Origin: Betaproteobacteria bacterium
Lineage (GTDB): Bacteria; Pseudomonadota; Gammaproteobacteria; Burkholderiales; Casimicrobiaceae
Length of the DNA: 42,033 bases
NCBI GenBank assembly: GCA_029884335.1
Contig: JAOUIA010000031.1
Location: 1 to 42,033, forward strand
Reading direction: 5' to 3'
The notes beneath the pieces were generated by a model, which had not been told where the DNA came from, ran no database searches, and saw nothing but the letters and a program-made list of their open reading frames with translations. Below, piece by piece: positions 16,643-36,655 of the stretch. A program made the translations under genes and the position numbers. Numbering within the stretch: position 1 is the stretch's first letter; each line of letters begins with the position of its first letter.

Positions 16643-18814
16643 ATGTTCCGCACGCGCCTCGTCGTCGCAACGCTCTCGGCCGCCGCGTTCTTCGCCGTTG
16701 CGGTCGACGCGCTCGCCAGCCACCCGCTGTCGGCCAAGGCTCCGGTTCCCACGGCGCCCTCCGCCGACGCGCGCCAGGAGACCACGGGCGGGCGCGTTGA
16801 GCGGCTGACCGTTCGCGACGAGCGCCACGGCGCGACGCTGAGCTACCACTCGCTTCGCACCGCGAGCGGCGAGCGCGTCGCCCTCAAGTGGCTGGCGGCC
16901 GGCGAGGCCGTGCCCGGGGCGACGATCCGCGTCGAGGGCAGGCGCACCGATGGCACGCTGTTCGTCGACTCGGCAGCGACGCTCGCCGCGCCGGCGGCCG
17001 ACTACAGCAGCGCGCCGCCGGCGAACACGCGGCGCTACACCGGCACGCTCGAGTTCCTGCACGCGGACGACTTCGACCGCGACCGCTGCGAGATCCAGTA
17101 CGTGCTCGCCGGCGAGGACGGCGCGCACCTGCGCCTCGATCTCGCGGTCGTGCCCGACGTGCTCGAGAAGGGCATGCGGCTGGCCGTCGACGGCGTGCCG
17201 TCCGCCGACGGCCTGTCCGTCGAGCCGAGCACCATGGTCATCCAGGCCGACGGCGCGCCGGCCGCGGATCTCGCCGCCGACGTCTCGGGCACCACGCAGG
17301 TGCTGGTCATCCTGATCAAGTACGCCGACACCGCGACCGAGCCCTACACGCAGGCGCAGATCACGAGCACCGTGTTCTCGTCCGCGAGCGGCGTGGCGAA
17401 CTACTTCCGCGAGTCGAGCTACGGCCGGCACATGCTCGCCGGGACGGTCACGCCCTGGTTCACGGCCAGCTTCGCCCGCCCGACCACCTGCGACTACAGC
17501 CGCGTTTCCAACGAGGCGATGACCCTCGCGCGCAACGCAGGCTACGTCACAGCGAACTACCAGAAGTTCGTCTACGTGTTCCCCTCGCTGCCGGGCTGCG
17601 GATGGGCCGGGCTGGGCGGAGGGTCGAGCGCCTGGATCAACCAGGCGGCCAGCGTGCTGGTCATCGGCCACGAGCTCGGGCACACGTTCGGCATCGGCCA
17701 CGCCTCCAGCCTGCGATGCAACGTCAGCGGAGCCACCCATCCGATCGACGGCACGTGCACGCGCAGCGAGTACGGCGACGGCTTCTCGATCATGGGCAAC
17801 AGCCGCCCTGGGCACCTCTCCGCCCCGCACAAGGTGGAGCTGGGCTACGTCCAGCCGGCCCAGTACCGCACGCACGCCGGCGGCACCGCCACGTACGCGC
17901 TCTCGCCGTACGAGACTCCCGGCGGCACGACCTACGCGCTGAAGATACCGGCCTCCCCGCGACGCACCTACTGGATCGAGTTCCGCCAGCCGACGGGCTT
18001 CGACGCTTTCATGGGGACCGGCGCGACGGAGGGCGCGCTGTTCCACACGTCGTGGCCGTCCGACTGGTCGTGCGACAGCTGCCTGCTCGACATGACGCCG
18101 GCGACGGCGACGACGTTCTCCGACGCCGCGCTGCCGGTCGGCGCGACGTTCGCCGATACGCTCACGGGCATGTCGGTCACCGTGCAGTCGAAGACGGCGA
18201 CGGCGCTCTCTGTGAGCGTGACGACGCCTACCCGCCCGACGTACGCCGACGTGCCCGCCACGCACAGCGCGTACTCGGCGATCGAGACGCTGGCCTGGCA
18301 CGGCGTGGCCGTCGAGTGCGGTACCAGCCCGCTGCGCTATTGCCCGGACGTGCCGATCACGCGCGCCGAAACGGCGGCGTTCATCGAGCGCGCGAAGCGG
18401 GGCCCGAGCTACGCGTTCACCGCCACCGGCACGCGCTTCGCCGACGTGCCGATCACGCACTGGGCGGCGAAGTACATCGAGCAGCTGCACATCGACGGCA
18501 TCACCTCGGGCTGCGCGACGAGTCCGCTGCGCTACTGCCCGGACGGAAATCTCACACGCGCGCAGATGGCGCCCTTGCTGCTGCGCGGCCGCTACGGCTC
18601 GACGTTCAACCCCGGCACGGCGACGGGAAGCGTGTTCGTCGACCTGCCGACTTCGCACATGTTCGCCGCCTGGATCGAGCGGCTCTACAGCTACCAGATC
18701 ACGCTGGGCTGCGTGGCCAGCCCGCGCCAGTACTGCCCCGACGGCACGGTCACCCGCGCGCAGATGGCGCTGTTCCTCATGCGGGCGTTCGGGCTCGTGC
18801 CGCCCGCGCTCTGA
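16643..18814 (+). CDS. Secreted metzincin (M11 gametolysin-like) protease with three C-terminal Cys-SLH-like repeats
   Basis: 723 residues. A signal peptide (cleavage near ALA-S) is followed by a poorly recognised N-terminal region, then a zinc protease domain with HELGHTFGIGH (ligands H343, H347, H353; base E344) and a Met-turn at M384 (FSIMGN), which together define a metzincin; the layout resembles gametolysin-type M11 peptidases. The C-terminal 190 residues contain three SLH-like repeats (about 533-590, 598-652, 664-718), each with the pattern F-x-D-V/L, an aromatic I-E helix, GC...YCP and [IVL]TRA[EQ]. Each repeat has a Cys pair that canonical SLH domains lack. The Arg of the SLH TRAE glycan-binding motif is kept in all three. 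It heads the cluster of SLH-like secreted proteins. The start has a weak ribosome binding site. Confidence 0.85.
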   Translation: MFRTRLVVATLSAAAFFAVAVDALASHPLSAKAPVPTAPSADARQETTGGRVERLTVRDERHGATLSYHSLRTASGERVALKWLAAGEAVPGATIRVEGRRTDGTLFVDSAATLAAPAADYSSAPPANTRRYTGTLEFLHADDFDRDRCEIQYVLAGEDGAHLRLDLAVVPDVLEKGMRLAVDGVPSADGLSVEPSTMVIQADGAPAADLAADVSGTTQVLVILIKYADTATEPYTQAQITSTVFSSASGVANYFRESSYGRHMLAGTVTPWFTASFARPTTCDYSRVSNEAMTLARNAGYVTANYQKFVYVFPSLPGCGWAGLGGGSSAWINQAASVLVIGHELGHTFGIGHASSLRCNVSGATHPIDGTCTRSEYGDGFSIMGNSRPGHLSAPHKVELGYVQPAQYRTHAGGTATYALSPYETPGGTTYALKIPASPRRTYWIEFRQPTGFDAFMGTGATEGALFHTSWPSDWSCDSCLLDMTPATATTFSDAALPVGATFADTLTGMSVTVQSKTATALSVSVTTPTRPTYADVPATHSAYSAIETLAWHGVAVECGTSPLRYCPDVPITRAETAAFIERAKRGPSYAFTATGTRFADVPITHWAAKYIEQLHIDGITSGCATSPLRYCPDGNLTRAQMAPLLLRGRYGSTFNPGTATGSVFVDLPTSHMFAAWIERLYSYQITLGCVASPRQYCPDGTVTRAQMALFLMRAFGLVPPAL

Positions 18815-18822
18815 CGCGAGCG

Positions 18823-18952
18823 TCCCCTCGCCCCCGGTCCCTCTCCCGCCCGACGCCCCTCACCCCCAACCCCTCTCCCACCTGACGGCGGGAGAGGGGA
18901 GCGCTTCTCCCCTCTCCACGCGATAGCGGGGAGACAGGTCGGGGGTGAGGGC
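18823..18952. repeat. REP-like palindromic repeat cluster
   Basis: Several inverted and direct copies of the CCCTCACCCCCAACCCCTC family, including a hairpin around CCCACCTGACGGCGGGAGAGG, directly after the metalloprotease stop. The 269-nt gap to the next gene holds no other coding signal apart from a possible promoter near 19042. Confidence 0.8.
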
Positions 18953-19041
18953 GCCGGCGTTGCCGCGAAGTCCCCTGCCGAGCTTGATCGCTGCCGAGGC
19001 AGGTCATCGCCACGTCGGCCGGCGGAGGACGGGTTCCGGCG

Positions 19042-19047
19042 TAGAAT
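19042..19047 (+). promoter_or_regulatory. Probable -10 element for the SLH-like paralogue at 19084
   Basis: TAGAAT lies 37 nt before the TTG start and beyond the REP cluster. No convincing -35 box is seen. GGAG at 19072-19075 provides the ribosome binding site. Confidence 0.4.
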
Positions 19048-19083
19048 TGCCGGGTTTCATCGATCCTCGCCGGAGACTCCCCC

Positions 19084-19812
19084 TTGCAACTCAAGCGACT
19101 CCTCGTGGCCAGCTCCTTCGCGCTCGCCGCCCTCACCGCAGTGCCCGCCTCGGCGCAGAACTGCGTCGGCTTCACCGACGTGCTCGCCACCGATCCGATC
19201 TGCCCCAGCGTCGAATGGTTGAGGAACCGCGCCATCACGCTGGGTTGCACCGGCACGGCCTATTGCCCGGCCGATCCGGTGACGCGCGGCACCATGGCGC
19301 TGTTCATGAACCGCCTCGGCACCGCGCTCACTCCCACGTTCCTGCGCAAGCGCGAGCCGCCCGCCGGGGGCTCGGTCGCACTGAACTTCGTCGGCCAGCA
19401 AAACCTCTGCGCCACCGACGCGCTCACCATCAATGGCCATCCGCGCACGGCGATCGTGCGCGGGCTCGTCAACCTGTTCACGCCCAGCGGCGGCATGGGC
19501 ATCAAGGCGTGGGTCGTCTATTCGACGGACGGCGGCACGACGTGGATCACGCCGGCGACCAGCGACGGCCTCGCGTACGCGTCCCTCTACTCGGGCCAGA
19601 CGCCGACCAACGACGTCTCGCTGCACCCGATGAACGTGATCGACCTCAACGTGGGCTCGAGCTACCGCTTCGCGCTGGCGGCGATCCGCACCGCCGGCAC
19701 GGGCGACGTGGCCAACGCCTACTGCGAGAACCTCGTGCAGCTCGTCAACCGCAACGGCGCGACCTCCCCGCTCGACGTCGGCACGAGCGGCGTGCACGGG
19801 CGCGGCGACTGA
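19084..19812 (+). CDS. Secreted SLH-like/Asp-box paralogue 1
   Basis: 242 residues from a TTG start (eight bases after GGAG). The signal peptide ends at PASAQ. It is followed by one SLH-like half domain (about 25-80): CVGFTDVLATDPICP, VEWLRNRAITLGC, AYCPADPVTRGTMALFMNRLG. A beta-rich domain (about 85-242) follows, with the Asp-box-like YSTDGGTTW, a Cys in NLCATD and a Cys in YCENLVQLVNRNGA. Four Cys in the first part and two in the second are shared with the paralogues at 20530-21356, 21652, 27408 and the C-terminus of the subtilase at 24436. No enzyme motif is seen, so a structural or binding role at the cell surface is my inference. Confidence 0.75.
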   Translation: MQLKRLLVASSFALAALTAVPASAQNCVGFTDVLATDPICPSVEWLRNRAITLGCTGTAYCPADPVTRGTMALFMNRLGTALTPTFLRKREPPAGGSVALNFVGQQNLCATDALTINGHPRTAIVRGLVNLFTPSGGMGIKAWVVYSTDGGTTWITPATSDGLAYASLYSGQTPTNDVSLHPMNVIDLNVGSSYRFALAAIRTAGTGDVANAYCENLVQLVNRNGATSPLDVGTSGVHGRGD

Positions 19813-19835
19813 TCACCGGGGCCCTGCGCACGAAC

Positions 19836-19860
19836 GAAGGCCCGCGTTTCGCGGGCCTTC
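19836..19860. terminator. Bidirectional terminator hairpin
   Basis: GAAGGCCCGCG and CGCGGGCCTTC form a perfect 11-bp stem with a TTT loop, 23 nt after the stop of the plus-strand paralogue and inside an 88-nt gap between convergent genes. A short T-containing tail follows (GCGCTTTCGG). Confidence 0.75.
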
Positions 19861-19875
19861 GCGCTTTCGGGGAAC

Positions 19876-19894
19876 GGGCCGCGCCGCGCGGCCC
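19876..19894. terminator. Second hairpin in the convergent gap
   Basis: GGGCCGCG and CGCGGCCC pair over 8 bp with a 3-nt loop, just beyond the stop of the minus-strand Adhesin_E-like gene. Together with 19836-19860 it likely isolates the two convergent transcripts. Confidence 0.45.
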
Positions 19895-19900
19895 GCGGGG

Positions 19901-20398
19901 CTACTTCGCCGCTGGCGCAGGGGAAGGCGCGGGCGGGGGCGCAGCCGGAGCCCCGGGCTTCGCCTTGGCAGCCTCCTCCATCAGCATCTTCTGCTGCTCC
20001 GGGGGGATGCACGCGCGGAAGATCAGCAGCTCCGCGATGCTGTCCGGCAGCGCCGTCTCGAATTCGAGCGTCTTGCTCGTCTGCCGGCCCAGCGACTGGC
20101 CCTTGCCCATCGCGTCCTTGTAGAGGATCAGGTCGGCGAGTGCCGTCGAGGCCTTCGCGCAGTCGACCGCGAACAGGCGCACCGCCGAGCGCGCCTGGTT
20201 CGCGGGCACCTCGTCGCGGAGGTTGTCGAGCTGCCACACCATCTTGTGGCCGTCCTGGTCGCGGATGCGCGTCGGGTCGAAGAACACGTCGACCGTCTTC
20301 TCGCCGAGCCTGGTCGAGGCCATCGGTTCCCACGCCGCAGCAGCAGGCGCGGCAACCGTGGCGAGTGCGGCGGCAAGCGCGATGCGGCGCAGGTTCAT
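19901..20398 (-). CDS. Adhesin_E-like exported protein
   Basis: 165 residues with a signal peptide (MNLRRIALAAALATVAAPAAAA). The mature part resembles the surface-adhesin protein E family of Betaproteobacteria and Pasteurellaceae: a VFFDPTRIRDQDGHKMVW strand pair, SAVRLFAVDC, LADLILYKDAMGKG and a distal Cys in FRACIPP that would bond with the first. The C-terminus is a Pro/Ala tail. Members of this family are small secreted proteins; the Haemophilus protein E binds host matrix, but most environmental homologues have no known role. Earlier in-frame starts (20428 and 20434) exist; neither has a ribosome binding site, so the exact start is uncertain. It lies among the SLH-like genes but lacks their module. 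Confidence 0.7.
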   Translation of the reverse strand: MNLRRIALAAALATVAAPAAAAWEPMASTRLGEKTVDVFFDPTRIRDQDGHKMVWQLDNLRDEVPANQARSAVRLFAVDCAKASTALADLILYKDAMGKGQSLGRQTSKTLEFETALPDSIAELLIFRACIPPEQQKMLMEEAAKAKPGAPAAPPPAPSPAPAAK

Positions 20399-20465
20399 GG
20401 CAGGGCGCGGAGCGGGTCGGGGCATGGCGGGCATGTTAACGCGAACCGCGCGGCGCCGACGCTCC

Positions 20466-20503
20466 AAGCAAAACCGGCGGGACCTCGCGGTGCCCGCCGG
20501 TTT
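20466..20503 (-). terminator. Intrinsic terminator of the frameshifted SLH-like paralogue
   Basis: On the minus strand an 11-bp stem AAACCGGCGGG/CCCGCCGGTTT ends in TTTTGCTT, 27 nt past the stop codon. Stem and T-run are both good. Confidence 0.75.
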
Positions 20504-20529: not shown

Positions 20530-21356
20530 CTACGGGTACGGCCGGCCCTGCGGCGGCGCGGCGTCCGCAGGGGGGTTGTACTCCGCGCCGTCGAACGGTC
20601 GCGTGGCGCTGCTGCGGCTCGCGATCGACACGATGTTCGTGCAGTTCACGGCGACGTTCGAGGTCGTGCCGGTCAAGCGCTGCACGCGCATGCCGAACTT
20701 GTAGGACTTGTTCACCGCGAGGTCGAGGTAGCCGTTCGGGTAGGTGCTGACGTCGTGCACGGGCACGAACGCGGCGCCCTGGTACATCGCCAGGAAGTGC
20801 GCCGTGATCGGCACCGGCAGCCAGGTCGTCGAAGCGGGTTGCCCGGGGTCAGTGACGGTGTAGACCATGTCAACGACCAGCTGACCGCTCGCCGACGGGT
20901 TGTAGAGGTTCATCCGGCCGGTGAAGTGCGCGCGGCGCGGGTAGCTGTCCGCCGGAATCACGAACTCGCCGGTCGCGCAGCGGACGACGCCCCCCGGGGG
21001 GGAAAGGTCCAGCTGCGACACGGAGTCGAACTGGGCACCGGCTCGATGATCGTCGGCGTCAGCTTGTCGCCTTCGCGCTTGAGGAAGATCGCCATCTGGA
21101 GCCGCGTGACCGGGTCGTTCGGACAGTACGCCGTGCCCGCGCCGCACCCCAGCGTTATCGAGCGGTTGCGGACCCACTCGACCTCGGGGCAGAACTGGTT
21201 GCTCTGCAGCACGTCGGTGAAGCCGGCGAAGCCCGGGTAGGCGGCGCCACCCACGAGGCCGGGGCTGGCAGCGACAGCGGCGCAGTTCTGCGCGCCTGCG
21301 GGCAGCGCGACGACGGCGAGCAGCGCGGCGGCGGGGAGGAGGTGGCGGATGCGCAT
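20530..21356 (-). pseudogene. Secreted SLH-like/Asp-box paralogue 2, interrupted by a frameshift
   Basis: The N-terminal part begins at ATG 21356 with a signal peptide ending PAGAQN, then an SLH-like half (FTDVLQSNQFCPEVEW, NRSITLGCGAG, YCPNDPVTRLQMAIFLKREG) up to LTPTIIEPVP. At about 21033-21035, a GGG run on the plus strand, the frame changes by -1. The beta-rich domain then continues from QFDSVSQLDLS to the stop at 20530, with C in VVRCATGEF, the variant VYTVTDPGQPASTTW, and NCTNIVSIAS near the end. One extra base in the run would give an intact protein of about 275 residues matching the other paralogues. A sequencing or assembly error, a recent mutation or phase variation would all fit. 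A TATAAT -10 box lies 85 nt upstream, so the gene is probably transcribed. It is divergent from the gene at 21652. Confidence 0.75.
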
Positions 21357-21425
21357 GGGGAGCCCCTGTGGTTTCGGATGGTGGATCGTTTCTTTCGGGC
21401 TCTGGTCGGCCCGTAATCGGAGACG

Positions 21426-21468
21426 ATTGTATGGAAACGGATTATATGCCGATAGCATGGGCGACGAA
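21426..21468 (-). promoter_or_regulatory. AT-rich promoter region with perfect TATAAT
   Basis: On the minus strand TATAAT (21441-21446) and a second -10-like TACAAT (21426-21431) lie in an AT-rich island, 70-90 nt before ATG 21356. The -35 candidate TTCGTC (21463-21468) at 16 bp is weak. This 295-nt divergent intergenic region (21357-21651) has no other recognisable element. Confidence 0.5.
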
Positions 21469-21651
21469 CGGTCGTCCCGGAAACAACGCAGCTGCCCTGA
21501 AGGCCGGCCTTCATAGTGCGGATGGCTCCGGCCGGGGTCGACCTGAACACTTCAGGCACGCCCGGGTTCGCCGGTCGAGTCGTGTCGTTTCATGTCCACG
21601 GCATGCCGCTCGTCGGGCGCCCGGGGCGCGAGCCGGCCCGCCGGGGAAGCC

Positions 21652-22380
21652 GTGGCACCATGGCGGCTCGCACCCCGCGTCCCGCCGGAGGCCCGCATTC
21701 ACCGCATCCGCCCCCTCGCCGCCTTCGCCCTCGCCCTGGGCCTGACGCCGACCCACGCGATGGCCCGGTCCTGCGCCGGCTTCACGGACGTGTCGGCCGC
21801 CGACCCGCTGGTCTGCCCGGCGGTCCAGTGGGTGCGCAATCGCTCGATCACGCTGGGCTGCGGAACCGGCACCACCTACTGCCCCAGCGACCCGGTGACC
21901 CGCGCCGCCATGGCGCTGTTCATGAACCGTCTCGGCGTGGCCCTGAGCCCGCAGCTTGCGTTCGCCGAGGCGTCCCTGGGAGCGGTCGATCCCGACCTCT
22001 CGCCGGTCCTGTGCCAGACGGCGGCCACCGCCGCGGCCACGTACCCGCGGCAGGCGCTCGTCTCGGCGGCTTTCGCGGGGCTCGCGACGGCCGACGCCGG
22101 GTTCTCGGTCCAGCCCCAGGCGAGCACGGACGGCGGCGCCAGCTGGGCGCCGCTCGGTACGGTGGCGATCGGGGAGACTGTGGTCGGCCCTACCTGGGGC
22201 AACGCCGGTGCGGTGGGCACGATGCAGATCCCGGCAGGCCAGGCCGTCCGCTTCGCCATCCGCGTCAGCCGCGCCGCTGGCGGCGGCGACTTCTCGCAGG
22301 CGCGCTGCCAGGTCCTGGCCAACGTGATGAACGCGAACGGCGCCTCGCCGCCGTTCGACGGGGTGCTCGCCGTGCGTTGA
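21652..22380 (+). CDS. Secreted SLH-like/Asp-box paralogue 3
   Basis: About 242 residues. After a signal peptide (IRPLAAFALALGLTPTHAMA) comes the SLH-like half: CAGFTDVSAADPLVCP, VQWVRNRSITLGC, YCPSDPVTRAAMALFMNRLG. The beta-rich domain follows, with VLCQTA, the Asp-box-like ASTDGGASW and CQVLANVMNANGASPPFD. The start is uncertain. GTG 21652 has a GGGGAAG ahead of it; ATG 21592 would add an arginine-rich leader unlike a signal peptide. GGAGG at 21687-21691 sits five bases before an ATT codon (21697) that would give an ideal signal peptide, hinting at a non-canonical start. The metalloprotease gene follows at 78 nt, so they may be co-transcribed. Confidence 0.75.
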   Translation: MAPWRLAPRVPPEARIHRIRPLAAFALALGLTPTHAMARSCAGFTDVSAADPLVCPAVQWVRNRSITLGCGTGTTYCPSDPVTRAAMALFMNRLGVALSPQLAFAEASLGAVDPDLSPVLCQTAATAAATYPRQALVSAAFAGLATADAGFSVQPQASTDGGASWAPLGTVAIGETVVGPTWGNAGAVGTMQIPAGQAVRFAIRVSRAAGGGDFSQARCQVLANVMNANGASPPFDGVLAVR

Positions 22381-22457
22381 CCGGCGGCACGCGCGCTACT
22401 CGACACCCAATTTTGGCAAGCGCACACTGTTGCCCGCCGCAAACTAGGGAGATGAAC

Positions 22458-24329
22458 ATGGACGCAACCCTCCGTTCCACGTTGCCGTTCGCCTTCCTGA
22501 TGGCCGCGCTGATGCACGCGGCTCCGGCGCCGGCACAGGGCACGGCGGCGCGCCTGTTCGGGCCCACCGTCGCACCGGCCGCAGTGTCGACCGTGGTCGA
22601 CCGCGCGGCGATCCGAACTCGCGCCGTGCGTCCCGACCTCGGTGCCGTGGACGAGTTGGCCAGACGCCACGTCGCCACGAACGAGGCGTCGCGCTTCACG
22701 CTCGATCTCTTCCCCGGCCTCGAGCTCGACGCCGAGGTCATCGCGGCGGAAGTGCGCACTACGGGCACCACAGTGTTCGCGAAGCTCGTCGGCATCGAGC
22801 TCGGCACCGCCGTGCTGACGCACGAGGCCGGCGTGCTGGTCGCCACCATCGACTTTCCCGGCGGCAACTTTGCTGTCGAGCTCGACGCGGGCGGCGACTA
22901 CCGCATCGTGCAGAAGGCGGCGCAGTTCGAGCCGCCCGAGGCTCCGCCGCGCCTGCATTTCGCGCCGGCTCCGACGTTGGACGCGTTCGCCGAGCCGGAC
23001 GTCCCCGTCGACTCCGGGCGGCTGATCGACGTGATGATCGTGTGGACGCCGGCGGCGCAGACCGCGGCGGGCGGCGCTGCCGCGATGCAGGCCCTCGCGC
23101 AGGCCTCGATCGACAACGCGAACCTCACCTACCTCAACAGCGGCGTCGCGCAGCGGGTGCGGCTGGTCCACGCCCAGCAGGTGACCTACACCGAGGTGGC
23201 ATCCGGCCCGGGCTGCAGCGATCCGTTCGACTGCGCGCTCGACGCCATCACCAACGGCACCGTGGCGGGGTTGCATGCGCTGCGCGACACGCACGGTGCC
23301 GACCTGGTGTCGTTGTTCATCAATTCGACGACGTACTGCGGCCTCGCGTGGCTCCCGATCCCCTCGGCGGGAACGGCGCATCTAGGCTACTCGGTGCTCT
23401 ACTGGAGCGGCTGCCCAGTCAGCAACAAGTCATTCGTGCACGAGCTCGGCCACAACATGGGCGCGCACCACGACCCGTACGTCGCGCCGGGCCCAGGTGC
23501 GTACACGTACTCGCACGGGATGGTGAACCTCGCGGGGCGCTGGCGGACCGTGCTCGCGTACAACGACCAATGCGCCGCGACGACGCCCTTCACGTCGTGC
23601 ACGCGCGTGCAGTATCTATCCAACCCGCAGCTCACCTACAGCGGCGCGCCGACGGGCGACGCCGCCGTGCGCAACAACGCGTACACGCTGAACAAGACAG
23701 CCAAGGCGATCGCCGCGTACCGTCCGACGTCGTCGATGCACCCGGTGCCGCAGCGCTTCACCGACGTCGCCGCCAGCCACATGTTCTACGGCTACATGGA
23801 GTTCCTCGCCCAGGCCGGCATCACGAGCGGCTGCGGCACGGGGCTGTACTGCCCCGACTCGGTGGTCACCCGCCGCCAGATGGCGGTGTTCCTCGAGCGA
23901 CAGCTGCGCGCGTCGAACTGGACGCCGCCGGCGGGGACGGGCCTGTTCATCGACGTGCCGCCCGGCGCGCAATTCCGCGACTACATCGAGGCGCTGCGCA
24001 ACGACGCCATCACCAGCGGCTGCACGACGACGACGTACTGCCCGGACGACCCGGTGACGCGCGCGCAGATGGCCGTCTTCGTCTTGCGCACGATGTGCGG
24101 CGCCGCGTACGTGCCGAGCATGCCCGCCGTGCAGCGGTTCACCGACGTCGCGCCGTCGCACGCGTTCTACCGCTTCATCGACAAATTGGCCGCGCTGGGC
24201 ATCACCAGCGGCTGCAGCGTTTCGCCAGCGCGGTACTGTCCCGACGATCCGGTGACGCGCAGCCAGATGGCCGTGTTCCTCGAGCGCTCGTTCCCGGCGA
24301 AGGTGCCGACGGAGGCCTGCGCGCTTTAA
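22458..24329 (+). CDS. Secreted metzincin (M12B/reprolysin-like) protease with three C-terminal Cys-SLH-like repeats
   Basis: 623 residues: signal peptide (to PAPAQG), a propeptide-like region, then a metzincin domain with HELGHNMGAHHD (zinc ligands H328, H332, H338; base E329) and IDVMIVWTP upstream, as in bacterial reprolysin-type peptidases. The last 190 residues hold three SLH-like repeats (about 433-485, 496-548, 561-613), each ending GC...YCPD..VTR.QMAVF. The Arg of the TRxQ motif is conserved in all. Of two nearby ATGs, 22458 is chosen because GGGAG (22447-22451) is six bases upstream; 22452 would leave no spacing. It differs from the metalloprotease at 16643 in the catalytic domain but shares the C-terminal architecture, so the two proteases probably attach to the same target. 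Confidence 0.88.
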   Translation: MDATLRSTLPFAFLMAALMHAAPAPAQGTAARLFGPTVAPAAVSTVVDRAAIRTRAVRPDLGAVDELARRHVATNEASRFTLDLFPGLELDAEVIAAEVRTTGTTVFAKLVGIELGTAVLTHEAGVLVATIDFPGGNFAVELDAGGDYRIVQKAAQFEPPEAPPRLHFAPAPTLDAFAEPDVPVDSGRLIDVMIVWTPAAQTAAGGAAAMQALAQASIDNANLTYLNSGVAQRVRLVHAQQVTYTEVASGPGCSDPFDCALDAITNGTVAGLHALRDTHGADLVSLFINSTTYCGLAWLPIPSAGTAHLGYSVLYWSGCPVSNKSFVHELGHNMGAHHDPYVAPGPGAYTYSHGMVNLAGRWRTVLAYNDQCAATTPFTSCTRVQYLSNPQLTYSGAPTGDAAVRNNAYTLNKTAKAIAAYRPTSSMHPVPQRFTDVAASHMFYGYMEFLAQAGITSGCGTGLYCPDSVVTRRQMAVFLERQLRASNWTPPAGTGLFIDVPPGAQFRDYIEALRNDAITSGCTTTTYCPDDPVTRAQMAVFVLRTMCGAAYVPSMPAVQRFTDVAPSHAFYRFIDKLAALGITSGCSVSPARYCPDDPVTRSQMAVFLERSFPAKVPTEACAL

Positions 24330-29323: not shown

Positions 29324-30374
29324 CCACGTCGACTGGGGCCACGTCCGCCAACGGCCCCACCACCTCGCGGCGGGGCTCGCCGCGCGCTACGACGTCACGG
29401 TGATCGCGCCGCTTGCGCGCAAGCGGTCCTCGCTGGTCACGCAGCCCGCGCGCGGCGCGCGCGTCGTCCACGTGCTGCGCGTGCCCGGCTCGTATCGCAG
29501 CGCCGTCGTCGCCCGCCTCAATGCGACGGTCGCGCGATGGCAATGCGCGCCGCGCATCCGCGCGGCAGCCGCCGTGGTCGTCACCTCGCCGGAGCTGTGG
29601 CCGTGGATCGCGCCCGACGTCGGCCGCCGCCCGCTCGTCTACGATTGCATGGACGACGCGCTGGCGTTCGACCAGGACGCGGGCGTGCGCGACCTCAAGG
29701 CGCGCTGGGAGCGCGAGCTCATCGCGCGGGCGGACGTCACCGTCTGCTCCAGCGACGAGCTCGCCGCGCGCATGCGCTCGCGCGGCGCGCCCGCGGAAAG
29801 GCTGCGGGTGATCCCGAACGGCTGGGATCCGGAGGCGTTCCCCGTGCAGCCTTCGCAGGCGCTGCCCGCGGCAGGACCGCTGGTGCTCGCCTACTTCGGC
29901 ACGATCGCGCGCTGGCTCGACACCGACGCGCTGCGCGCCGTCGTCGCCGCGTGCCCCGGGGCGTCGATCCGACTGATCGGCCCGGTCGACGGCGCGGCGC
30001 CCACGGCGATCGAGCGGGTCGCGACCGAGCCGCCGTGGCCGCACGACGCGCTCGCCGCCGCGGTCGCCGACGCCAACGCCATGCTGCTGCCGTTTCGCGT
30101 CGGCGATCTCACGCGCGCCGTCGACCCGGTGAAGCTCTACGAGTACGTCGCGCTGGGCAAGCCGGTCGCCGCGTCGTACTGGCCCGCGCTCGACCGCTTC
30201 GCGCCGTTCGTCACGTTCTACCGCGACCCTGCGCATCTCGCCACGCTCGTGCGCGAGCGCGCGCTCCCGGCGCCGCCCGACGCCGCCGCGCGCACGGCGT
30301 TCCTCGCGCCGCAATCGTGGCGCTCGCGCGCCGAGGCGCTGGCCGACGCGATCGAGGCCACGCGGGGCCATTGA
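29298..30374 (+). CDS. Glycosyltransferase (GT4-like, GT-B fold)
   Basis: 358 residues from a TTG start at 29298, giving MKPRLVLVSHVDWGHVRQRPHHLAAGLA, a form widespread in glycosyltransferases that recognise their acceptor with an N-terminal HVRQRPHH motif. The second half has VIPNGWDPEAF (nucleotide-sugar binding), LAYFGTIARWLD, and the acidic E in KLYEYVALGKPVAASYWPALDRF. The start overlaps wecB by 26 nt, implying translational coupling, and there is no good alternative start. It would transfer a sugar, perhaps ManNAc or a derivative, onto a lipid-linked glycan; donor and acceptor are not predictable. Confidence 0.85.
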   Translation: MKPRLVLVSHVDWGHVRQRPHHLAAGLAARYDVTVIAPLARKRSSLVTQPARGARVVHVLRVPGSYRSAVVARLNATVARWQCAPRIRAAAAVVVTSPELWPWIAPDVGRRPLVYDCMDDALAFDQDAGVRDLKARWERELIARADVTVCSSDELAARMRSRGAPAERLRVIPNGWDPEAFPVQPSQALPAAGPLVLAYFGTIARWLDTDALRAVVAACPGASIRLIGPVDGAAPTAIERVATEPPWPHDALAAAVADANAMLLPFRVGDLTRAVDPVKLYEYVALGKPVAASYWPALDRFAPFVTFYRDPAHLATLVRERALPAPPDAAARTAFLAPQSWRSRAEALADAIEATRGH

Positions 30375-30611: not shown

Positions 30612-31553
30612 TCACTGCACGCGGCGCAGCCAGAGGCTGGAGCCCGGTCCCTTCAGGAACACCGGCACCGCGCGCTCGACGTCCTGGCGCATGAACTGCG
30701 TGGCGTAATCGGAGAAGAAGTCGATCTCGAACGCGTTGTTGTACTGCAGAAACGCGCGCAGCAGGTAGGCCTCGTTCCACGCCGCGCCGATCTCCAGCAG
30801 CCAGTGCTTCGGGTACTCGAACGGCCAGAAGACGTCGTGGAAGTGCACCAGCACGCCGGGCGCGAGCGCGGGCAGGACGGAGAAGAGGATGTGGTTGACG
30901 TCGCTGTCGCAGCGGCTGACGTGCGTCGAGTCGACGAACAGGATGTCGCCGGCGGCGAGCCCGGCGAACGTCGCCGGGCTCGCGTCCTGGACCCGCACGG
31001 GCAGCACCTCCATGCGCTCGCGGTCGCCGTCGTGCAGGCCGGCGACCATGCGCTCCGGATGCGGGTCGAGGCTGGTGATCCGCGCCTTGCCGCCGAGGAA
31101 GCGCTCGTTGACGTCCAGCATCAGCCACGTCGATGCGCCGGAGCCGATCTCCACGATGCGCTTCGGGCGAATGAGCCGCATCATCGAGTAGAGAACCGCC
31201 GCGTCGCCGCGCGAATAAGTCGTGTTCTCCAGCGCAAATCGCAGCGCGGGGTCCGGTTCCTCGGTGTAGGGAAACTCCGCGTTGAACCGCGCGAAGCCCG
31301 CGAGCCGCTCGCGAATGCGCGCCTCGTCGACGCGCACGCCCGGCAGCTCGCGCGCGCCGGCGTCGAAGATCCGGTCCTGGTCGCGCTCAATCTCCGCGTA
31401 GCTCGGGATCGGCGAGTAGTAGTGGCCGGGCGCGGCAAAGCGAAGGAAGAGATCCTGCTTGCCCTGTCCGGCCGCGGCCGACTCCTCCGTCGCGGCGCTG
31501 CGCCCGCGCAATGCGGCCAGCGCCCTCGCCAGACGATCGATCACGCTCGTCAT
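30612..31553 (-). CDS. Class I SAM-dependent methyltransferase (Methyltransf_24 type)
   Basis: 313 residues. The SAM-binding core starts at IVEIGSGASTWLML (about 133-146), then SLDPHP, DASPATFAGLAAGDILFVDSTH and VHFHDVFWPFEYP. This is the pattern of the CmcI/Methyltransf_24 group, often found in surface polysaccharide and sugar-modifying loci. It would methylate a sugar or a glycan end, a modification that can stop chain growth; the exact role is not shown. ATG 31553 overlaps the stop of the upstream glycosyltransferase as ATGA. It is the last gene of the operon. Confidence 0.82.
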   Translation of the reverse strand: MTSVIDRLARALAALRGRSAATEESAAAGQGKQDLFLRFAAPGHYYSPIPSYAEIERDQDRIFDAGARELPGVRVDEARIRERLAGFARFNAEFPYTEEPDPALRFALENTTYSRGDAAVLYSMMRLIRPKRIVEIGSGASTWLMLDVNERFLGGKARITSLDPHPERMVAGLHDGDRERMEVLPVRVQDASPATFAGLAAGDILFVDSTHVSRCDSDVNHILFSVLPALAPGVLVHFHDVFWPFEYPKHWLLEIGAAWNEAYLLRAFLQYNNAFEIDFFSDYATQFMRQDVERAVPVFLKGPGSSLWLRRVQ

Positions 31554-33493
31554 GCCGTCCCGCCCGCTGCCTGCGGCGCGCCGACGAGCGCGGGAAGCAC
31601 GCGACGCAGCGCCTCGGTCCACTGCCGCTCCCAGCGCGCCTGCGAGAGCGTGGCCGCCACCTCAACCCCGCGCTCCGCCAGCGCCGCGCAGAGCGCGCGA
31701 TCGCCGACGAGCCGCCCGATGCCCTGCTGCAGCGCCAGCGCGCCGGGCTTCACCAGCAGGCCGTTGTAGCCGTCCAGCACCAGGTTCGGCAGGCCGCCCA
31801 CCGTCGTCGCGATCACCGCGTTGCGGGTGGCCATCGCCTCGATGCACGACAGCGAGGTGCCTTCGGCCCAGTTCGTCGGAATGAGCGCGATGTGGCTCGC
31901 CTCGTAGGCACGGTGCATGTCGCGTATCGGCAGCTCGAACCAGCGTGCGCGGTCGCCGTGCCGTGCGACGAACGCGCGCGCCAGCGCCGCTTCCGGCTCG
32001 TTCGCGCCGCCGCACAGGTGCACGTCGATCGGCGCGCCCCGCGCGAGCAGCCGGTCGCAGGCCTCGAGCGTGTCCTGGAAGCCGCGCGCCTTGTACAGGC
32101 GCCGCGGATAGAGGACGGTGAGCCGCGCGGCGGAGAAGTCCTTCGGCGAGGGGCGGAAGACGCCGAGGTCGACGTAGTTGGGCACGTAGTCGAGCGCCTG
32201 CGCGAGCTGCCAGTCGTGACAACGCACCCAGTTGATGAAGTTGGTGTCCACGCAGACGCAGGCGTCGACGCGCTGCAGCGCGTCGAAGAGCAGGCGGTCG
32301 CGCTGTGGGGAATGCGTCGCCAGCGTGTTCGTCCCCGCGTCCCAGTGGATGCCGTGGTTGATGCCGACCACGCGCTGCCGCCCCGCCAGCCGCGCGGCGA
32401 GCTCGACCGGCGACGCGATGACCAGCGCGGCGTCGGCGACGTGCCGCGAGTAGCCTTCGGACATGTGCGCGAGGTCGAACTGCGCCGCAAGCGGCAGCCC
32501 GACGACAGGCACGCCCTGGCACTCGCGCTCGAACGCGTGGTGCGCGTTCTGCAGGATGCGCGGCTCGAGCCCGAGACGACGGCACAGCAGCGCGAGGTCG
32601 AGCACGTAGCGCTCGGCGCCGCCGTTGTACATGCGCTCGCCCTGCCAGTCGAAGAAGTTGAACGTGAGGATGTCCACGCGGCGCGTCGCCGGCGCCGCGA
32701 CCGCGGCCCGCCGGTGCTTCCCGCTCCATTCGCCCAGGCGGGCGAGCGCCGGCGCGAGCGACGCGGCGTCCTCGGCCCCGTCCGCCACCAGCAGCGCTGC
32801 CGGCGACGGGGGCGGAGGCGTGGCGCAAAGCACGAGGTCGGCACGCGCCAGCAGCGCGGCGTGGTCGTCGCGCTCCGCCGTCGCGTCGGCCCCCTCGCCC
32901 GCCGGCGTCGGGACTGCGTCGTAGATCACGAACGCGTGGCGCAGCAGCCGCGCCACGTAGGCAAAGCGCGGCGCGTCGACGTAGAGCGCCACGGGCTCGT
33001 CGGCGAAATTCGCGAAGGCGTCGGGAAACAGGTGCGCGAGGTGCAGGCGCTCCTCGAGCCGCTCGACCGTCGGCACCGCGCTGTCGATGGGCAGAACGAG
33101 CCCGACGTACCCGGCCTTCGCGAACGCGCGCATCACCCGCCCGGCACGCGCACCCGCCTCGTGCCCCGCGACCGGGCAGAGCACCACGCCGCGCACGTCG
33201 CTTGCGTCCTCCACCAGCCGCTCGACCAACCGCTGCCGCCACAGCGGCGCCTGCGCCGCGTAGCGGCGGCAGAAGTCGAATTGCGCGTCGCGCATGCGCG
33301 CGTAGCCCGTTGCCTGCGCCGGTGCCGCGAGCGGCTCGCCGCTGGTGGACGCAAAGCTCCGCGTGCGCGACACCGCCTCGCGCCAGCCGTAGAGCGCGGC
33401 CATGCCCACGAAGCGGCGCGCGAGCCTGAGCACGCCCTTCTCGCGGATGCGGGCAAGCAGGCGCGACGCGCCCGATGATGCGCGTTCAGTCAT
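31550..33493 (-). CDS. Glycosyltransferase family 4-type protein with long N-terminal extension
   Basis: 647 residues. The C-terminal about 380 residues form a GT-B glycosyltransferase: NGGAERYVLDLALLCRRLG for the acceptor half, VGINHGIHWD, DYVPNYVDLGVFRP, VLYPRRLYKARGF, and the family EGTSLSCIEAMATRNAVIATTVGGLP with the conserved E-x7-E type pair in the nucleotide-sugar half. The N-terminal about 260 residues contain a separate, Rossmann-like region (GVVLCPVAGHEAGARAGRVMRA) not assigned to a family. The start at 33493 overlaps the GT2 gene by 8 nt and the stop overlaps the methyltransferase by 4 nt. It is cytoplasmic or membrane-associated, acting on a lipid-linked glycan. Confidence 0.85.
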   Translation of the reverse strand: MTERASSGASRLLARIREKGVLRLARRFVGMAALYGWREAVSRTRSFASTSGEPLAAPAQATGYARMRDAQFDFCRRYAAQAPLWRQRLVERLVEDASDVRGVVLCPVAGHEAGARAGRVMRAFAKAGYVGLVLPIDSAVPTVERLEERLHLAHLFPDAFANFADEPVALYVDAPRFAYVARLLRHAFVIYDAVPTPAGEGADATAERDDHAALLARADLVLCATPPPPSPAALLVADGAEDAASLAPALARLGEWSGKHRRAAVAAPATRRVDILTFNFFDWQGERMYNGGAERYVLDLALLCRRLGLEPRILQNAHHAFERECQGVPVVGLPLAAQFDLAHMSEGYSRHVADAALVIASPVELAARLAGRQRVVGINHGIHWDAGTNTLATHSPQRDRLLFDALQRVDACVCVDTNFINWVRCHDWQLAQALDYVPNYVDLGVFRPSPKDFSAARLTVLYPRRLYKARGFQDTLEACDRLLARGAPIDVHLCGGANEPEAALARAFVARHGDRARWFELPIRDMHRAYEASHIALIPTNWAEGTSLSCIEAMATRNAVIATTVGGLPNLVLDGYNGLLVKPGALALQQGIGRLVGDRALCAALAERGVEVAATLSQARWERQWTEALRRVLPALVGAPQAAGGTA

Positions 33494-35147
33494 CGCCCGC
33501 GCTCCAGCCGAGCCGCGGCCCGGCGGCGACCGGACCGGGCGCGAAGTCGAACGGATTGCCTTCCCGCGCGAGCCAGGGGTGGTGCGCCGGGTCGGTCGCG
33601 GCGGCGCGCTTTCCCCAGCGCGCGAGGAACCGGCCCTCCTCCTCAGCGAGGCGCACGCGCTCGGCAGGCTCGACCTCGTAGCCGCGCGACGCGCCTTCGA
33701 CGTGCAGCACGCGCGCGTACGGCGTCACCACGTTGGCGTAGCCCGCGCGCTCGAGGCGCAGGCACAAGTCCACCTCGTTGTGCGACACGGCGAATCCCTC
33801 GTCGAAGCCGCCGACGGCAGTGAACTTGCGCCGCTCGACGGCGAGGCAGGCGCCCATCACGGCACTCACGCGCCGGCGCGACGCCGACCACCCGACGGCG
33901 GCCGCGTCGCCCGGCGCGAACCCGGCGAGCGCGCTGGTCGCGGTGCGGTTCACGCCCACGAGCACGCCGGCCGACTGCACGCGGCCATCCTCGTAGAACA
34001 GCCAGGGTCCCGCGGCGCCGGTCCACGGCCGCGCAGCGAGCGCAACCAGCTCCGCGACCCCGTCGGGCGACGCGAAGCGCGCGTCGTTGTTGAGGAACAG
34101 GAGCACGCTGCCGCTCGCCTGCGCAGTGCCGGCGTTGCACAGCGCCGCGAAGTTGAACGGCTCGGGGCGAGGGACGACGCGCAGGCTCCGCGCGCGCGCC
34201 AGCTCCCGGCACAGCGACGCGACTTCCGGATCGGTCGAGCCATTGTCGACGACGACGATCTCCACCGCGCGGCCCTCCAGCGCGACGGGGAGCGACGCCA
34301 CGCAGCGTCGCAACAACTCGGCCCGGTCGCGCACCGCAACCACGACCGAGAGCGTGACCTCCGCAGGTGCCCGAAAGCGCACCGTGGGGGCGCTGCCGGA
34401 GTCGAACCCGACGTCCGCCCCGCGATGCCGCGCGGCCTCCACTCCCCGGCGCGCGTGGCGCAGGCGCCACTCCACGCCGGAATCGGGCACCTCGCCGATC
34501 GCGTGGCAGGCGATGCCCGGCACGTGCAGCACGCGCGCGCCGGTGGTCGCTGCGAGTTCGGCCACCGCTGCCGAGATCGCCTCGCCCGCCGGCGCGCGTT
34601 CGCTCGCCGTGAGCGCCGCACGGTCGCGCACCAGCAGCAGCGGGCCGCAGGGATTGCGCTCGAAGGCCTGCTCGGCGTCCCACGCCGAGGCCAGCACCGG
34701 ACGCTCGCGGCGGCCCTGCGCGTCGAGATGATCGTAGTCGGCGTACGCTGCCTGCGCATCGGGAAACGCGGCGAGCGCGGCAGCGAAGCGGCCGGCGAGG
34801 GATGCGTCGGGCGCCACGTCGGCGCCGACCCATAGCACCGCATCGGCGCCGGCGTTCGGCGCGGGCAGACTCGCCGCCAGCCGCGCGGCCACGCGCGCAC
34901 GTGCCGTCTCGCTGGCGAGATCGACGCGCACTTCCCGCCACGGCGACGCGGTCGGCGCAACCTCCGGCGAATCCACGCTCTCCCGGAGCCACGCGCGATA
35001 CTCGGTCGCATCCGGGCTGCAGGCACGCAGCCGCGCCAGCATGCCGGGCAGTTCACCGCGCAGCGCCAGCCTGACGACGCGCACGCCGAACCACCAGAGG
35101 CGCTGCGGGCTGCGCGTGGCATCGCGCAGGCGGCTGACCACCCTCAT
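33486..35147 (-). CDS. Glycosyltransferase family 2-type protein
   Basis: 553 residues. The catalytic GT-A domain (about 285-500) has VTLSVVVAVRDRAELLRRCVASL, VVDNGSTD, LLFLNNDARFASPDGV (DxD-like NND), and GGFDEGFAVSHNEVDLCLRLERAGY with the catalytic-type acidic pair, as in rhamnosyltransferase-like GT2 enzymes. The N-terminal 270 residues also look like a degenerate GT-A domain (AYADYDHLDAQG), so this may be a tandem or two-domain transferase. The ATG overlaps the stop of the pyruvyltransferase gene as ATGA. Its sugar donor is unknown. Confidence 0.88.
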   Translation of the reverse strand: MRVVSRLRDATRSPQRLWWFGVRVVRLALRGELPGMLARLRACSPDATEYRAWLRESVDSPEVAPTASPWREVRVDLASETARARVAARLAASLPAPNAGADAVLWVGADVAPDASLAGRFAAALAAFPDAQAAYADYDHLDAQGRRERPVLASAWDAEQAFERNPCGPLLLVRDRAALTASERAPAGEAISAAVAELAATTGARVLHVPGIACHAIGEVPDSGVEWRLRHARRGVEAARHRGADVGFDSGSAPTVRFRAPAEVTLSVVVAVRDRAELLRRCVASLPVALEGRAVEIVVVDNGSTDPEVASLCRELARARSLRVVPRPEPFNFAALCNAGTAQASGSVLLFLNNDARFASPDGVAELVALAARPWTGAAGPWLFYEDGRVQSAGVLVGVNRTATSALAGFAPGDAAAVGWSASRRRVSAVMGACLAVERRKFTAVGGFDEGFAVSHNEVDLCLRLERAGYANVVTPYARVLHVEGASRGYEVEPAERVRLAEEEGRFLARWGKRAAATDPAHHPWLAREGNPFDFAPGPVAAGPRLGWSAGDD

Positions 35148-36655
35148 CGCGAGCCGCGCCAGGCGCGCCACGCCGCGAGGACGCGCCGCGCCGGCTCCGC
35201 GTAGCGATACGAACGCGAGCCGGCGATCGCCTCGTGCGCGGCCTGCCAGCGAACGGCATCCCCGCGCGCCGCGTCGCGCTCGGCCAGCGCCTGCGCGAGG
35301 GCCTGCGCAAGCCGCGCGGCTTCCTCCCTGCCCTCGGCGATCTCGGCCGCCGCGCGCGCGATCTGGTCCAGCACGACCCTGCCCTGGTCGAGCTCGCGGT
35401 GCAGCCTCCGCTCCGCCGCGGCCGCGAGCCCCGGCGCCGCCGCGGCCTGCCGCGCCCAGGTCGCGAGCCAGCGCGCGCGCGGCGCCGCGTCGGGCGCGCC
35501 CGCCGTGGCCGCCATCGCCCGCCAGAGCACGTCGCGGTGCTCGAGCGAGCGAGCGGCGAGCTCCGCGACGCGCGCCGGCGCCATGCAGTACGCGCCCGCC
35601 CCGGTCGCCGCGGAGATCGCCGGCGCCAGCCGCTCGCCGATCGCCGTCAGCGGCACGCGCTGCGCGTCCGGCACGCCGGCCTCGTCCGCAAGCGCTGCGA
35701 CCTTGCCGTCGTACTCGATCGCGACAGCCGGGCGTCCGGCAACGTGCGCGAGAAGCGCGCCGTGCATGCGCATCGCGAGCACTGCATCGCAACCGGCAAT
35801 GACGCCGTACGCTTCGTCGAGGTCGTCGCCCCGCCACGACGCGTGGACACCCGGCAGGCGCGCGCGCATCCGCTCCGAAATCGACGGGTCGTGCTCCGCC
35901 CCGCGCCGGAAGTCGATCCACAGGCACGCCCAGTCGCCCGCGAGCGAGGGGCCGAACGCCGCGGCGAAGCGATCCTCCCAAGCGGCGTCGAAAGCCCAGT
36001 CGCGCAGCAGCACCGCCAGCACCTTGCGCCCGCGCAGCGACTCGTCCACGCGCGACGGCGTGCGCGGCGACGCGTCGGCCGGCCGCCACGCCCAGCCCGG
36101 ATCGGGCGCCACCGGCCACCGCGCGGCACAGCCGACGTCGCGCAACAGCGCGGCCGACTCGCGATCGCGCAGCGACGCCGCGTACGCGCTGGCGAAGACG
36201 TGGCTCGCGATGCGCCGCGCGCTCGCTCCCCGCAGTGGCCCCACCCCCTGCGCGAGCGCGACGTACGGAACGTCGAGCGCCGTCGCAAGCAGCGCGTACT
36301 GCGCGAACTGCGTCGCCCCGAACGCGGGGAACCGCTCCAGCGCGTCCTCGTCAAGCTCGTCGTAGTCCTGCAGCAGGCCGCCCCCGCCGAGAACCAGCAG
36401 GTCCGCGCCCGCAACCGCGTCGGCCATCGCCGCGGCGTCCGAGTAGCCGACGCCGCGCATCCCGTGCGCGCGCTCGGTGTACGCCGGATCGACGCTGATC
36501 GCGGATGCCTCTCCGCCGGCCTCGCGCACCCAGCCGGCGATCACGCGCAGCAGGAGCTCGTCGCCGAGGTTCCCGGACCCGTAGTTGCCGGCCAGCACGA
36601 CGCGGCGCGGACGCGCGCGCAGCCCTTCGACGAGGCCTTCGGTGGCCGCGCTCAC
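35144..36655 (-). CDS. csaB: CsaB-type polysaccharide pyruvyl transferase with C-terminal coiled-coil tail
   Basis: 503 residues from GTG 36655 (GTGA overlap with the exporter ATPase gene). Residues about 17-350 match polysaccharide pyruvyl transferases, with CsaB-like landmarks: AGNYGSGNLGDELLL (22-36), LGGGGLLQD, ALAQGVGPLRG, SLRDRESAALLRDVG, and LAMRMHGALLAHVAGRP followed by IEYDGKVAALADEAG. CsaB adds a ketal pyruvate from PEP onto glycans, in Gram-positives onto the ManNAc of the cell-wall polysaccharide that SLH domains bind. Residues about 380-503 form an Ala/Glu-rich likely coiled coil ending in AGSRSYRYAEPARRVLAAWR, a tail more usual for glycosyltransferases. The gene symbol is by family resemblance only. 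Pyruvylation of another exported glycan is also possible. Confidence 0.85.
   Translation of the reverse strand: MSAATEGLVEGLRARPRRVVLAGNYGSGNLGDELLLRVIAGWVREAGGEASAISVDPAYTERAHGMRGVGYSDAAAMADAVAGADLLVLGGGGLLQDYDELDEDALERFPAFGATQFAQYALLATALDVPYVALAQGVGPLRGASARRIASHVFASAYAASLRDRESAALLRDVGCAARWPVAPDPGWAWRPADASPRTPSRVDESLRGRKVLAVLLRDWAFDAAWEDRFAAAFGPSLAGDWACLWIDFRRGAEHDPSISERMRARLPGVHASWRGDDLDEAYGVIAGCDAVLAMRMHGALLAHVAGRPAVAIEYDGKVAALADEAGVPDAQRVPLTAIGERLAPAISAATGAGAYCMAPARVAELAARSLEHRDVLWRAMAATAGAPDAAPRARWLATWARQAAAAPGLAAAAERRLHRELDQGRVVLDQIARAAAEIAEGREEAARLAQALAQALAERDAARGDAVRWQAAHEAIAGSRSYRYAEPARRVLAAWRAWRGSR

Follow-up and report, generated by a model that had tools for sequence, protein, structure and literature searches.

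A 42,033-nucleotide stretch of a betaproteobacterial genome (Betaproteobacteria bacterium, family Casimicrobiaceae; assembly GCA_029884335.1, contig JAOUIA010000031.1, positions 1 to 42,033; hereafter the window) carries a cluster of genes for secreted proteins with surface layer homology (SLH) modules beside predicted genes for the synthesis, pyruvylation and export of a glycan, and we consider it moderately probable that these genes form one SLH-type protein display system built on a pyruvylated, exported glycan. In the system that we propose, WecB would supply UDP-N-acetylmannosamine (UDP-ManNAc), the glycosyltransferases would assemble a lipid-linked glycan, a CsaB-like enzyme would place a pyruvyl ketal on that glycan, and the ABC transporter Wzm/Wzt would export the chain. 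After passage through the Sec system, the proteases and small proteins would attach to this pyruvylated glycan by SLH trimers, made of three modules in one chain in metalloproteases A and F and probably of three one-module subunits in the small proteins. The presumed ligand is pyruvyl-ManNAc, its ManNAc part suggested by wecB alone, and the SLH proteins would lie exposed at the outer membrane surface, with a lipopolysaccharide (LPS)-type or other lipid anchor. The window corresponds to contig C36 in a draft genome of 3.66 Mb (G000; 120 contigs, completeness 95.6%).

The two metalloproteases, one subtilase and four small secreted proteins with SLH-like modules described in an original prediction for this DNA were all found, and together they carry 11 modules: three at the C-terminus of metalloprotease A (at about 18239-18790), three at that of metalloprotease F (from 23754), and one each in subtilase G and in small proteins B, D, E and H, of which D is frameshifted (Table 1). 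These modules are of two types: A and F have triple modules; the small proteins and G have single ones, which are marked by an extra Cys and a W-x-x-N-R stretch. Profile comparison clearly assigns the module family to SLH, in keeping with the prediction: profile A4—40 three-module SLH rows (120 modules), 2 of the rows from the window—matches the solved SLH domains of Bacillus anthracis Sap (best 3e-41), SbsB, OmpM, SlpA and SpaA. Against the PF00395 gathering cut-off of 20.8 bits, A and F score above (Table 1) and D, E, G and H below (12.3-14.7 bits each), and protein B has no match at E up to 1 in the protein scan and 14.6 bits in a six-frame search.

The prediction had further placed a CsaB-type pyruvyltransferase, a WecB-type epimerase, a Wzm/Wzt-type exporter and three glycosyltransferases about 7 kb beyond the SLH genes. 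Profile scores confirm the epimerase, the exporter, with a Wzt_C domain on its ATPase, and the three glycosyltransferases (GTj, GT1L and GT2M by Pfam), to which they add one methyltransferase (Table 1). All of these genes do share the window with the SLH genes, but the spacing is different, as about 8 kb separate the last SLH module from the csaB match and wecB begins only 68 bases beyond the last SLH gene, in the same orientation. The strand opposite to that of the SLH genes and wecB carries csaB - wzt - wzm.

Ligand-binding residues are partly conserved in these modules. In SpaA of Paenibacillus alvei, a pyruvyl sugar is bound by Gly29, Trp13 and Arg43 from three adjoining modules, with Trp13 stacking on the sugar, and SLH domains recognise pyruvyl-ManNAc at the non-reducing end (PMC6081394). 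Two of these three residues are largely kept in the window, Arg43 in 11/11 modules and Gly29 in 10/11 (120/120 and 111/120 in A4); Trp13 is found in 1/11 (12/120 in A4), and an aromatic residue directly follows its position in 93 of the 120 A4 modules. The Arg of the TRAE motif is indeed kept in every copy (11/11), as had been claimed, along with Thr in 10/11 and Glu in 1/11. We read this pattern as a pocket whose charged part is retained and whose stacking part is altered. Every window module additionally has one Cys after position 29 and another in a YCP motif, and both are present in 97/120 A4 modules.

This altered pocket bears on a second reading, possible yet doubtful, in which the SLH proteins do dock on the product of the cluster but recognise another anionic group or sugar, with the CsaB-like enzyme merely decorating the repeats. 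The loss of most Trp13 residues and the new Cys pair next to Gly29 would fit such a ligand, as would two known systems: in Klebsiella pneumoniae O1 pyruvate ends some chains yet is unneeded for export (PMC11231755), and in P. alvei every repeat is pyruvylated (PMC6081394). An Arg43 that is invariant across all 120 A4 modules is harder to reconcile with another ligand, and so is the repeated linkage of SLH genes to CsaB-like genes described below.

The pyruvyltransferase itself stands as a member of its Pfam family (PF04230; Table 1) and falls short of the full CsaB assignment originally made, since its TIGR03609 score of 160.3 bits is below the equivalog cut-off of 213.1 bits; it is the only PF04230 match in G000 (E up to 0.001, whole genome). 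Its motifs are intact at the phosphoenolpyruvate (PEP) site, for which R148, R306, H308 and K328 are the residues in P. alvei CsaB (PMC10435577). The R, R and H of this site are present in 41/41 aligned rows and the K in 40/41, with equivalence set by motif and spacing and the P. alvei sequence itself absent from the alignment; because controls are among these rows and keep the residues too, they do not discriminate CsaB membership. In a tree, the CsaB-like proteins of the window, of Betaproteobacteria bacterium BroJett026 (G015, a metagenome-assembled genome, MAG, of the same genus) and of Rhodocyclaceae fen_999 (G110) form one clade (support 100/99) inside a larger, weakly supported group of SLH-positive genomes, apart from G097 (CsaB-like, 176 bits, no SLH match), which falls in a separate starred clade with G105 and G550.

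Among 100 relatives (G000 included; 22 of the same genus), the small SLH protein family, represented by profile A1 (217 model positions), occurs in 2, G000 and BroJett026. TIGR03609 matches of at least 100 bits occur in 3 (these two and G097), and Pfam SLH matches (E up to 0.001) also in 3 (these two and G086). Both A1-bearing genomes are thus among the three with such a CsaB-like match, a co-occurrence with a Fisher p = 6e-4 (0.02 when the window's genome is set aside), and in each of the two the CsaB-like gene and SLH genes share a contig. The linkage that the original prediction had looked for among relatives is thus conserved in BroJett026, which keeps SLH, wecB, csaB and wzm on one contig as an SLH - wecB - glycosyltransferase group and a wzm - csaB - GT2 - GT1 group 11.5 kb apart: the csaB match runs to 12,230 and the SLH modules of the cluster begin at 23,712, with wecB and the glycosyltransferase gene between them. 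Identities between the window and BroJett026 are 89% for WecB, 78% for GTj, 72% for Wzm, 65% for Wzt and 52% for CsaB, and wzt and wzm are on opposite strands in BroJett026. In Rhodocyclaceae fen_999, wzm - wzt (with Wzt_C, PF14524 46.7 bits) - csaB follow one another in one direction. SLH matches were also seen on contig C6 of G086, a genome that gave no CsaB-like match at E up to 1e-3, and on contig C4 of G157, which gave none at E up to 1e-20 (the sole threshold tried there).

The pairing recurs in other phyla. A scan of named genomes with one pattern returned 225 stretches from 156 relatives, and the best 80 of these, corresponding to 77 loci, come from 43 distinct genomes: BroJett026, many Acidimicrobiia and other Actinomycetota, Acidobacteriota, and a single Nitrospira, Chloroflexi, Rhodocyclaceae and others, many of the genomes compared being drafts. 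TIGR03609 matches (E up to 1e-3) are present in 31 of the 43, and reach at least 100 bits in 20. We examined the flanks, to a maximum of 10 kb either way, of 19 of these 20 strong matches (the twentieth is BroJett026) and of 13 of the 19 matches below 100 bits (left out were two of G118 and one each of G119, G122, G138 and G139). SLH genes lie near the pyruvyltransferase in 9/19 strong loci (about 1.9 expected) and 11/13 weaker loci (about 1.4 expected), where the expectation is a rough one, derived from SLH counts over whole genomes, that assumes two detected modules per gene and random placement, although SLH genes cluster, and where the genomes had been selected for SLH content. Near the CsaB-like genes of 7 controls, taken from the 18 Pseudomonadota genomes with a CsaB-like match and no SLH match, SLH was found at 0/7 loci. 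Linkage across genomes, as originally anticipated, therefore exceeds the density expectation in SLH-rich genomes, mostly of other phyla.

Searching the same loci with the window's proteins (tblastn) returned WecB-like genes in 6/19 (L121-L139) and in 0/7 controls, a suggestive sign that wecB too may belong with the SLH and CsaB-like genes. The 13 weaker matches sit in frames of at least 740 amino acids (aa). In the one weaker locus that was scanned, in G135, the frame is a GT2 - pyruvyltransferase fusion, and the genes after it encode SLH - GSDH and M15 peptidase - SLH proteins. A recurrent layout, with a long-frame pyruvyltransferase (a GT2 fusion in the one case scanned) amid four SLH-triple genes at similar spacing, was seen in L145, L147, L149, L150 and L151, from Acidimicrobiia and other MAGs; in L149 the cargo of the SLH-triple genes includes GSDH and M15 peptidase.

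Across 199 Acidobacteriota genomes, CsaB-like matches of at least 100 bits occur in 6 of the 7 genomes with at least 3 SLH matches, compared with 5 of 192 others (p = 4e-8; 6e-7 without the centre genome G114), and in 8/48 versus 3/151 when at least 1 SLH match is asked for (p = 6e-4). SLH modules were found in 4 of the 11 Acidobacteriota loci whose CsaB-like protein reaches 100 bits or more, counting the G114 locus that is also among the 19 above; the 7 weaker Acidobacteriota loci examined yielded one 15-bit SLH match in a 50-aa frame.

These linkage data also speak to the suggestion of mere adjacency, namely an ordinary surface polysaccharide cluster that happens to lie beside secreted proteins whose SLH modules serve trimerisation alone. 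Such an arrangement would suit the spread of the SLH family over the genome, where A1 has 14 matches over at least 190 of its 217 positions on 7 contigs, as well as the opposite strands of csaB and the SLH genes and the weak association across Pseudomonadota given below. Chance proximity would leave unexplained, however, why linkage and co-occurrence recur in unrelated phyla and why the sole PF04230 gene of the genome is located here, and we regard this explanation as highly unlikely. Both G000 and BroJett026 hold further SLH-family copies outside the cluster.

Several findings nevertheless weigh against a single display system on a pyruvylated glycan. Sugar-stacking Trp13 is absent from 10/11 window modules, and the pyruvyltransferase, being under the equivalog cut-off, can be called CsaB-like only. 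No SLH gene lies within about 10 kb of csaB in Rhodocyclaceae fen_999 or in G179, a genome with 17 SLH matches, and 12 of the 43 SLH genomes have no TIGR03609 match at E up to 1e-3. Wzt-like genes occur in 5/19 loci but also in 2/7 controls, so that the link to the exporter is unspecific. Across 398 Pseudomonadota genomes, the association of SLH with CsaB-like genes is weak. CsaB-like matches (E up to 1e-20) occur there in 20 genomes, reaching at least 100 bits in 2 (the window's genome and G379), and SLH occurs in 11, of which 9 gave no CsaB-like match at that threshold. Where a genome has at least 2 SLH matches, 2/3 have a CsaB-like match compared with 18/395 others (p = 0.007, or 0.09 without the window's genome), and with at least 1 SLH match the figures are 2/11 and 18/387 (p = 0.10). 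The docking cluster of the original prediction accordingly keeps the backing of linkage and co-occurrence and loses some ground to the low CsaB score, the missing Trp13 and the weak Pseudomonadota association.

Where the SLH proteins reside, and how those with one module bind, can be approached through their relatives elsewhere in the genomes. Among ten other SLH proteins scanned, six combine a single SLH module with a Peptidase_S74 chaperone domain (L005 and L009 in G000; L053, L055, L060 and L061 in BroJett026), and four of these six also have weak to moderate YadA_head, UspA1_rep or beta-roll matches. The YadA_head, UspA1_rep and beta-roll families are known from trimeric fibres, and partners of the S74 and YadA-head type thus support the idea that single-module SLH proteins would form homotrimers. 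These six, among them L005 (235-2142, contig C118) and L009 (79-2460, contig C8) of the window's own genome, appear to be trimeric fibres with an SLH foot. A different architecture was seen in L116 (1-8307, BroJett026 contig 27), a 2769-aa frame with three SLH modules before teneurin-like RHS/YD-shell and NHL domains.

As for location, the SLH proteins might instead be periplasmic and tied to a peptidoglycan-linked pyruvylated polymer, like OmpM and SlpA in other diderms. Sec-type signal peptides are the only kind that we noticed by eye, and in other diderms such proteins attach to peptidoglycan or to polymers of the wall (PMC10628300). Yet a Wzm/Wzt pair with Wzt_C is of the O-antigen exporter type, a surface location is suggested by the protease cargo and by the S74 and YadA-head-like proteins elsewhere in the genome, and no fusion of SLH to a barrel occurs among the SLH proteins scanned, all of which makes a periplasmic arrangement quite unlikely in our view.

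We also considered a bolder form of the display system, in which the pyruvyl group is a chain cap that would be read first by Wzt and later by the SLH proteins. O-antigen systems of the ABC-dependent type place a terminator, sometimes followed by glycosyltransferase modules, at the distal tip of a coiled-coil ruler, and their Wzt has a carbohydrate-binding module that recognises the group at the end of the chain (PMC11231755). Four other genomes (G110, G113, G114 and G119) encode an N-terminal pyruvyltransferase domain followed by a spacer and then one or two glycosyltransferase domains, and in Acidobacteriota homologues of the window's glycosyltransferases, GT1L among them, adjoin or are fused to CsaB. 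These predicted domain arrangements suggest a chain cap, and taken together with Wzt systems that read caps and with the binding of terminal pyruvyl-ManNAc by SLH domains, they raise the prospect that the CsaB-like enzyme might cap the chain.

In its full form, this idea holds that one pyruvyl-ManNAc cap would end the chain and license its export through Wzt_C, and would then dock disulfide-stapled SLH proteins, including single-module homotrimers, in a bacterium with an outer membrane; we put it forward as unlikely, and its most speculative part is the reading of the cap by Wzt_C before export. The CsaB-like protein of the window does carry a C-terminal extension, of unproved coiled-coil character: the heptad power of this tail exceeds that of 98% of shuffles, yet heptads are not its main period, and no 42-aa stretch of it passed a stricter Pro/Gly filter for heptads. 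Capping is further disfavoured by a clear heptad signal in G119 alone among six proteins tested under the stricter filter, by a BroJett026 CsaB that is without the window's extension, and by actinobacterial CsaB proteins that, where examined, stop soon after the domain, except in G113.

The remaining features of the SLH gene cluster mostly concern single proteins. Metalloprotease A has an N-terminus that looks, by eye, like a signal peptide, and a TIGR03296 score of 45 bits, under the cut-off; the start of metalloprotease F was picked by eye. Subtilase G consists of an S8 domain, two Big_3_5 domains and one SLH module (26803-26934), and its C-terminal domain is the same as that of the small proteins, with the A1 match reaching 27390. 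Protein D is broken across two reading frames (20958-21458 and 20530-21177); an unbroken relative is present in BroJett026, and the split may be a sequencing error or mark a pseudogene. Protein H is 63% identical to a BroJett026 protein. Behind the single SLH module, the domain of roughly 140 aa (e.g., 27670-28121) has an S-x-D-G-G-x-x-W-like stretch that resembles an Asp-box, together with two largely conserved Cys residues, and a profile search with the small proteins returned Asp-box sialidase stretches (weak) besides weak SLH matches. The Adhesin_E gene C lies inside the SLH cluster and has a counterpart with 81% identity (tblastn) in the BroJett026 cluster.

Beyond the cluster, GMC oxidoreductase-like, epimerase and GtrA genes (38775-41976, minus strand) lie upstream of wzm in the same direction, and BroJett026 also has a GtrA gene near wzt. 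On the other side, adjoining IF-2B family and class II aldolase genes (14602-16399, by Pfam) form an MtnA-like IF-2B and aldolase pair of the kind known from methionine salvage. An 810-aa frame at 12034-14466 has no Pfam match at E up to 0.001; its first half is hydrophobic, and its end resembles a domain of the spermidine-synthase type. The sole Rfam match in the window at gathering scores is a tRNA-Phe. A compositional island was rejected, as GC is 0.70-0.77 across the whole window.

Table 1 Features of the SLH gene cluster and of the adjoining glycan-synthesis and export genes in the window
Feature	Position	Strand	Evidence
Metalloprotease A (M11/M6-like)	16643..18814	+	PF05548 31.6 bits; SLH PF00395 29.5 bits
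Small secreted protein B	19084..19812	+	One SLH module and C-terminal domain of about 140 aa
Neighbour C, Adhesin_E domain	19901..20467	-	PF16747 57.3 bits
Small secreted protein D, one SLH module	20530..21458	-	SLH module; two separate A1 matches
Small secreted protein E, one SLH module, start codon uncertain	21592..22380	+	PF00395 14.7 bits
Metalloprotease F (reprolysin-like)	22452..24329	+	PF00395 78.2 bits; Reprolysin_4/5 about 47 bits
Subtilase G	24436..27390	+	PF00082 148.7 bits; PF16640 68.8 bits; SLH 14 bits
Small secreted protein H, one SLH module from 27480	27408..28124	+	SLH and A1 matches
wecB, UDP-GlcNAc 2-epimerase	28193..29323	+	TIGR00236 433.9 bits (cut-off 210.15)
Glycosyltransferase GTj (GT4-type domains), start approximate	29298..30374	+	PF13579 48.9 bits; PF13439 44.4 bits
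Methyltransferase	30612..31622	-	PF13578 47.5 bits
Glycosyltransferase group 1 (GT1L)	31550..33493	-	PF13692 65 bits
Glycosyltransferase family 2 (GT2M), start approximate	33486..35147	-	PF00535 53.2 bits
CsaB-like pyruvyltransferase, start inferred	35144..36655	-	PF04230 97.2 bits; TIGR03609 160.3 bits
Wzt, ABC ATPase with Wzt_C	36652..37905	-	PF00005 80.5 bits; PF14524 62 bits (cut-off 30.4)
Wzm, ABC-2 permease	37895..38752	-	PF01061 84.1 bits

Several known systems resemble parts of this arrangement (pyruvate modification is reviewed in PMC6801904). With the anchoring of B. anthracis Sap and P. alvei SpaA to a pyruvylated secondary cell wall polymer, which involves CsaB and MnaA, the window shares SLH modules with Gly29 and Arg43, a CsaB-like enzyme and a UDP-GlcNAc 2-epimerase; it differs in its betaproteobacterial host, its ABC exporter with Wzt_C, its single-module small proteins, the Cys pair in every module, the loss of most Trp13 residues and a CsaB below the equivalog cut-off. 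The capped O-antigen systems of K. pneumoniae O12 (WbbB) and O7 (ORF6) and of Escherichia coli O9a (WbdD) likewise have Wzm and a Wzt with a C-terminal domain, whereas in the window the enzyme is a predicted pyruvyltransferase, the ruler is putative and the product would double as a docking site for proteins; the pyruvyltransferase stands N-terminal to glycosyltransferase domains in the four other genomes named above.

LysBT1, a phage endolysin, also has a single SLH domain, which forms trimers and attaches to certain Gram-negative surfaces; LPS is the ligand that its authors propose there (PMC12285257). Unlike the window's proteins, it comes from a phage of a Gram-positive host, has no glycan gene cluster, keeps Trp13 and has Cys without a disulfide. 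OmpM and Deinococcus radiodurans SlpA are further cases of SLH in a diderm, with one SLH per chain in a trimer, but these proteins have an outer membrane barrel, and their binding partner is wall polymer or peptidoglycan (PMC10628300); no barrel family appeared among the Pfam matches of the SLH proteins scanned, the scan being limited to those proteins. If the proposed location is right, Caulobacter RsaA on LPS O-antigen would be another proteobacterial surface protein held by a surface glycan, although that attachment depends on an N-terminal domain of RsaA itself and on calcium (PMC12175726). Among the titles listed from the open-access literature, outside which most subscription papers lie, none reports the pairing of SLH with a CsaB-like enzyme in Proteobacteria.

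If the display system works as proposed, it would show how a proteobacterium can keep proteases and other proteins on its surface by non-covalent attachment, and it could couple protein display to the way in which an exported glycan is decorated. It would also suggest a role for an uncharacterised secreted family that is present in 14 near-full-length matches in this genome. Should the reading of the cap prove true as well, SLH and pyruvate anchoring would extend to Proteobacteria of the LPS type.

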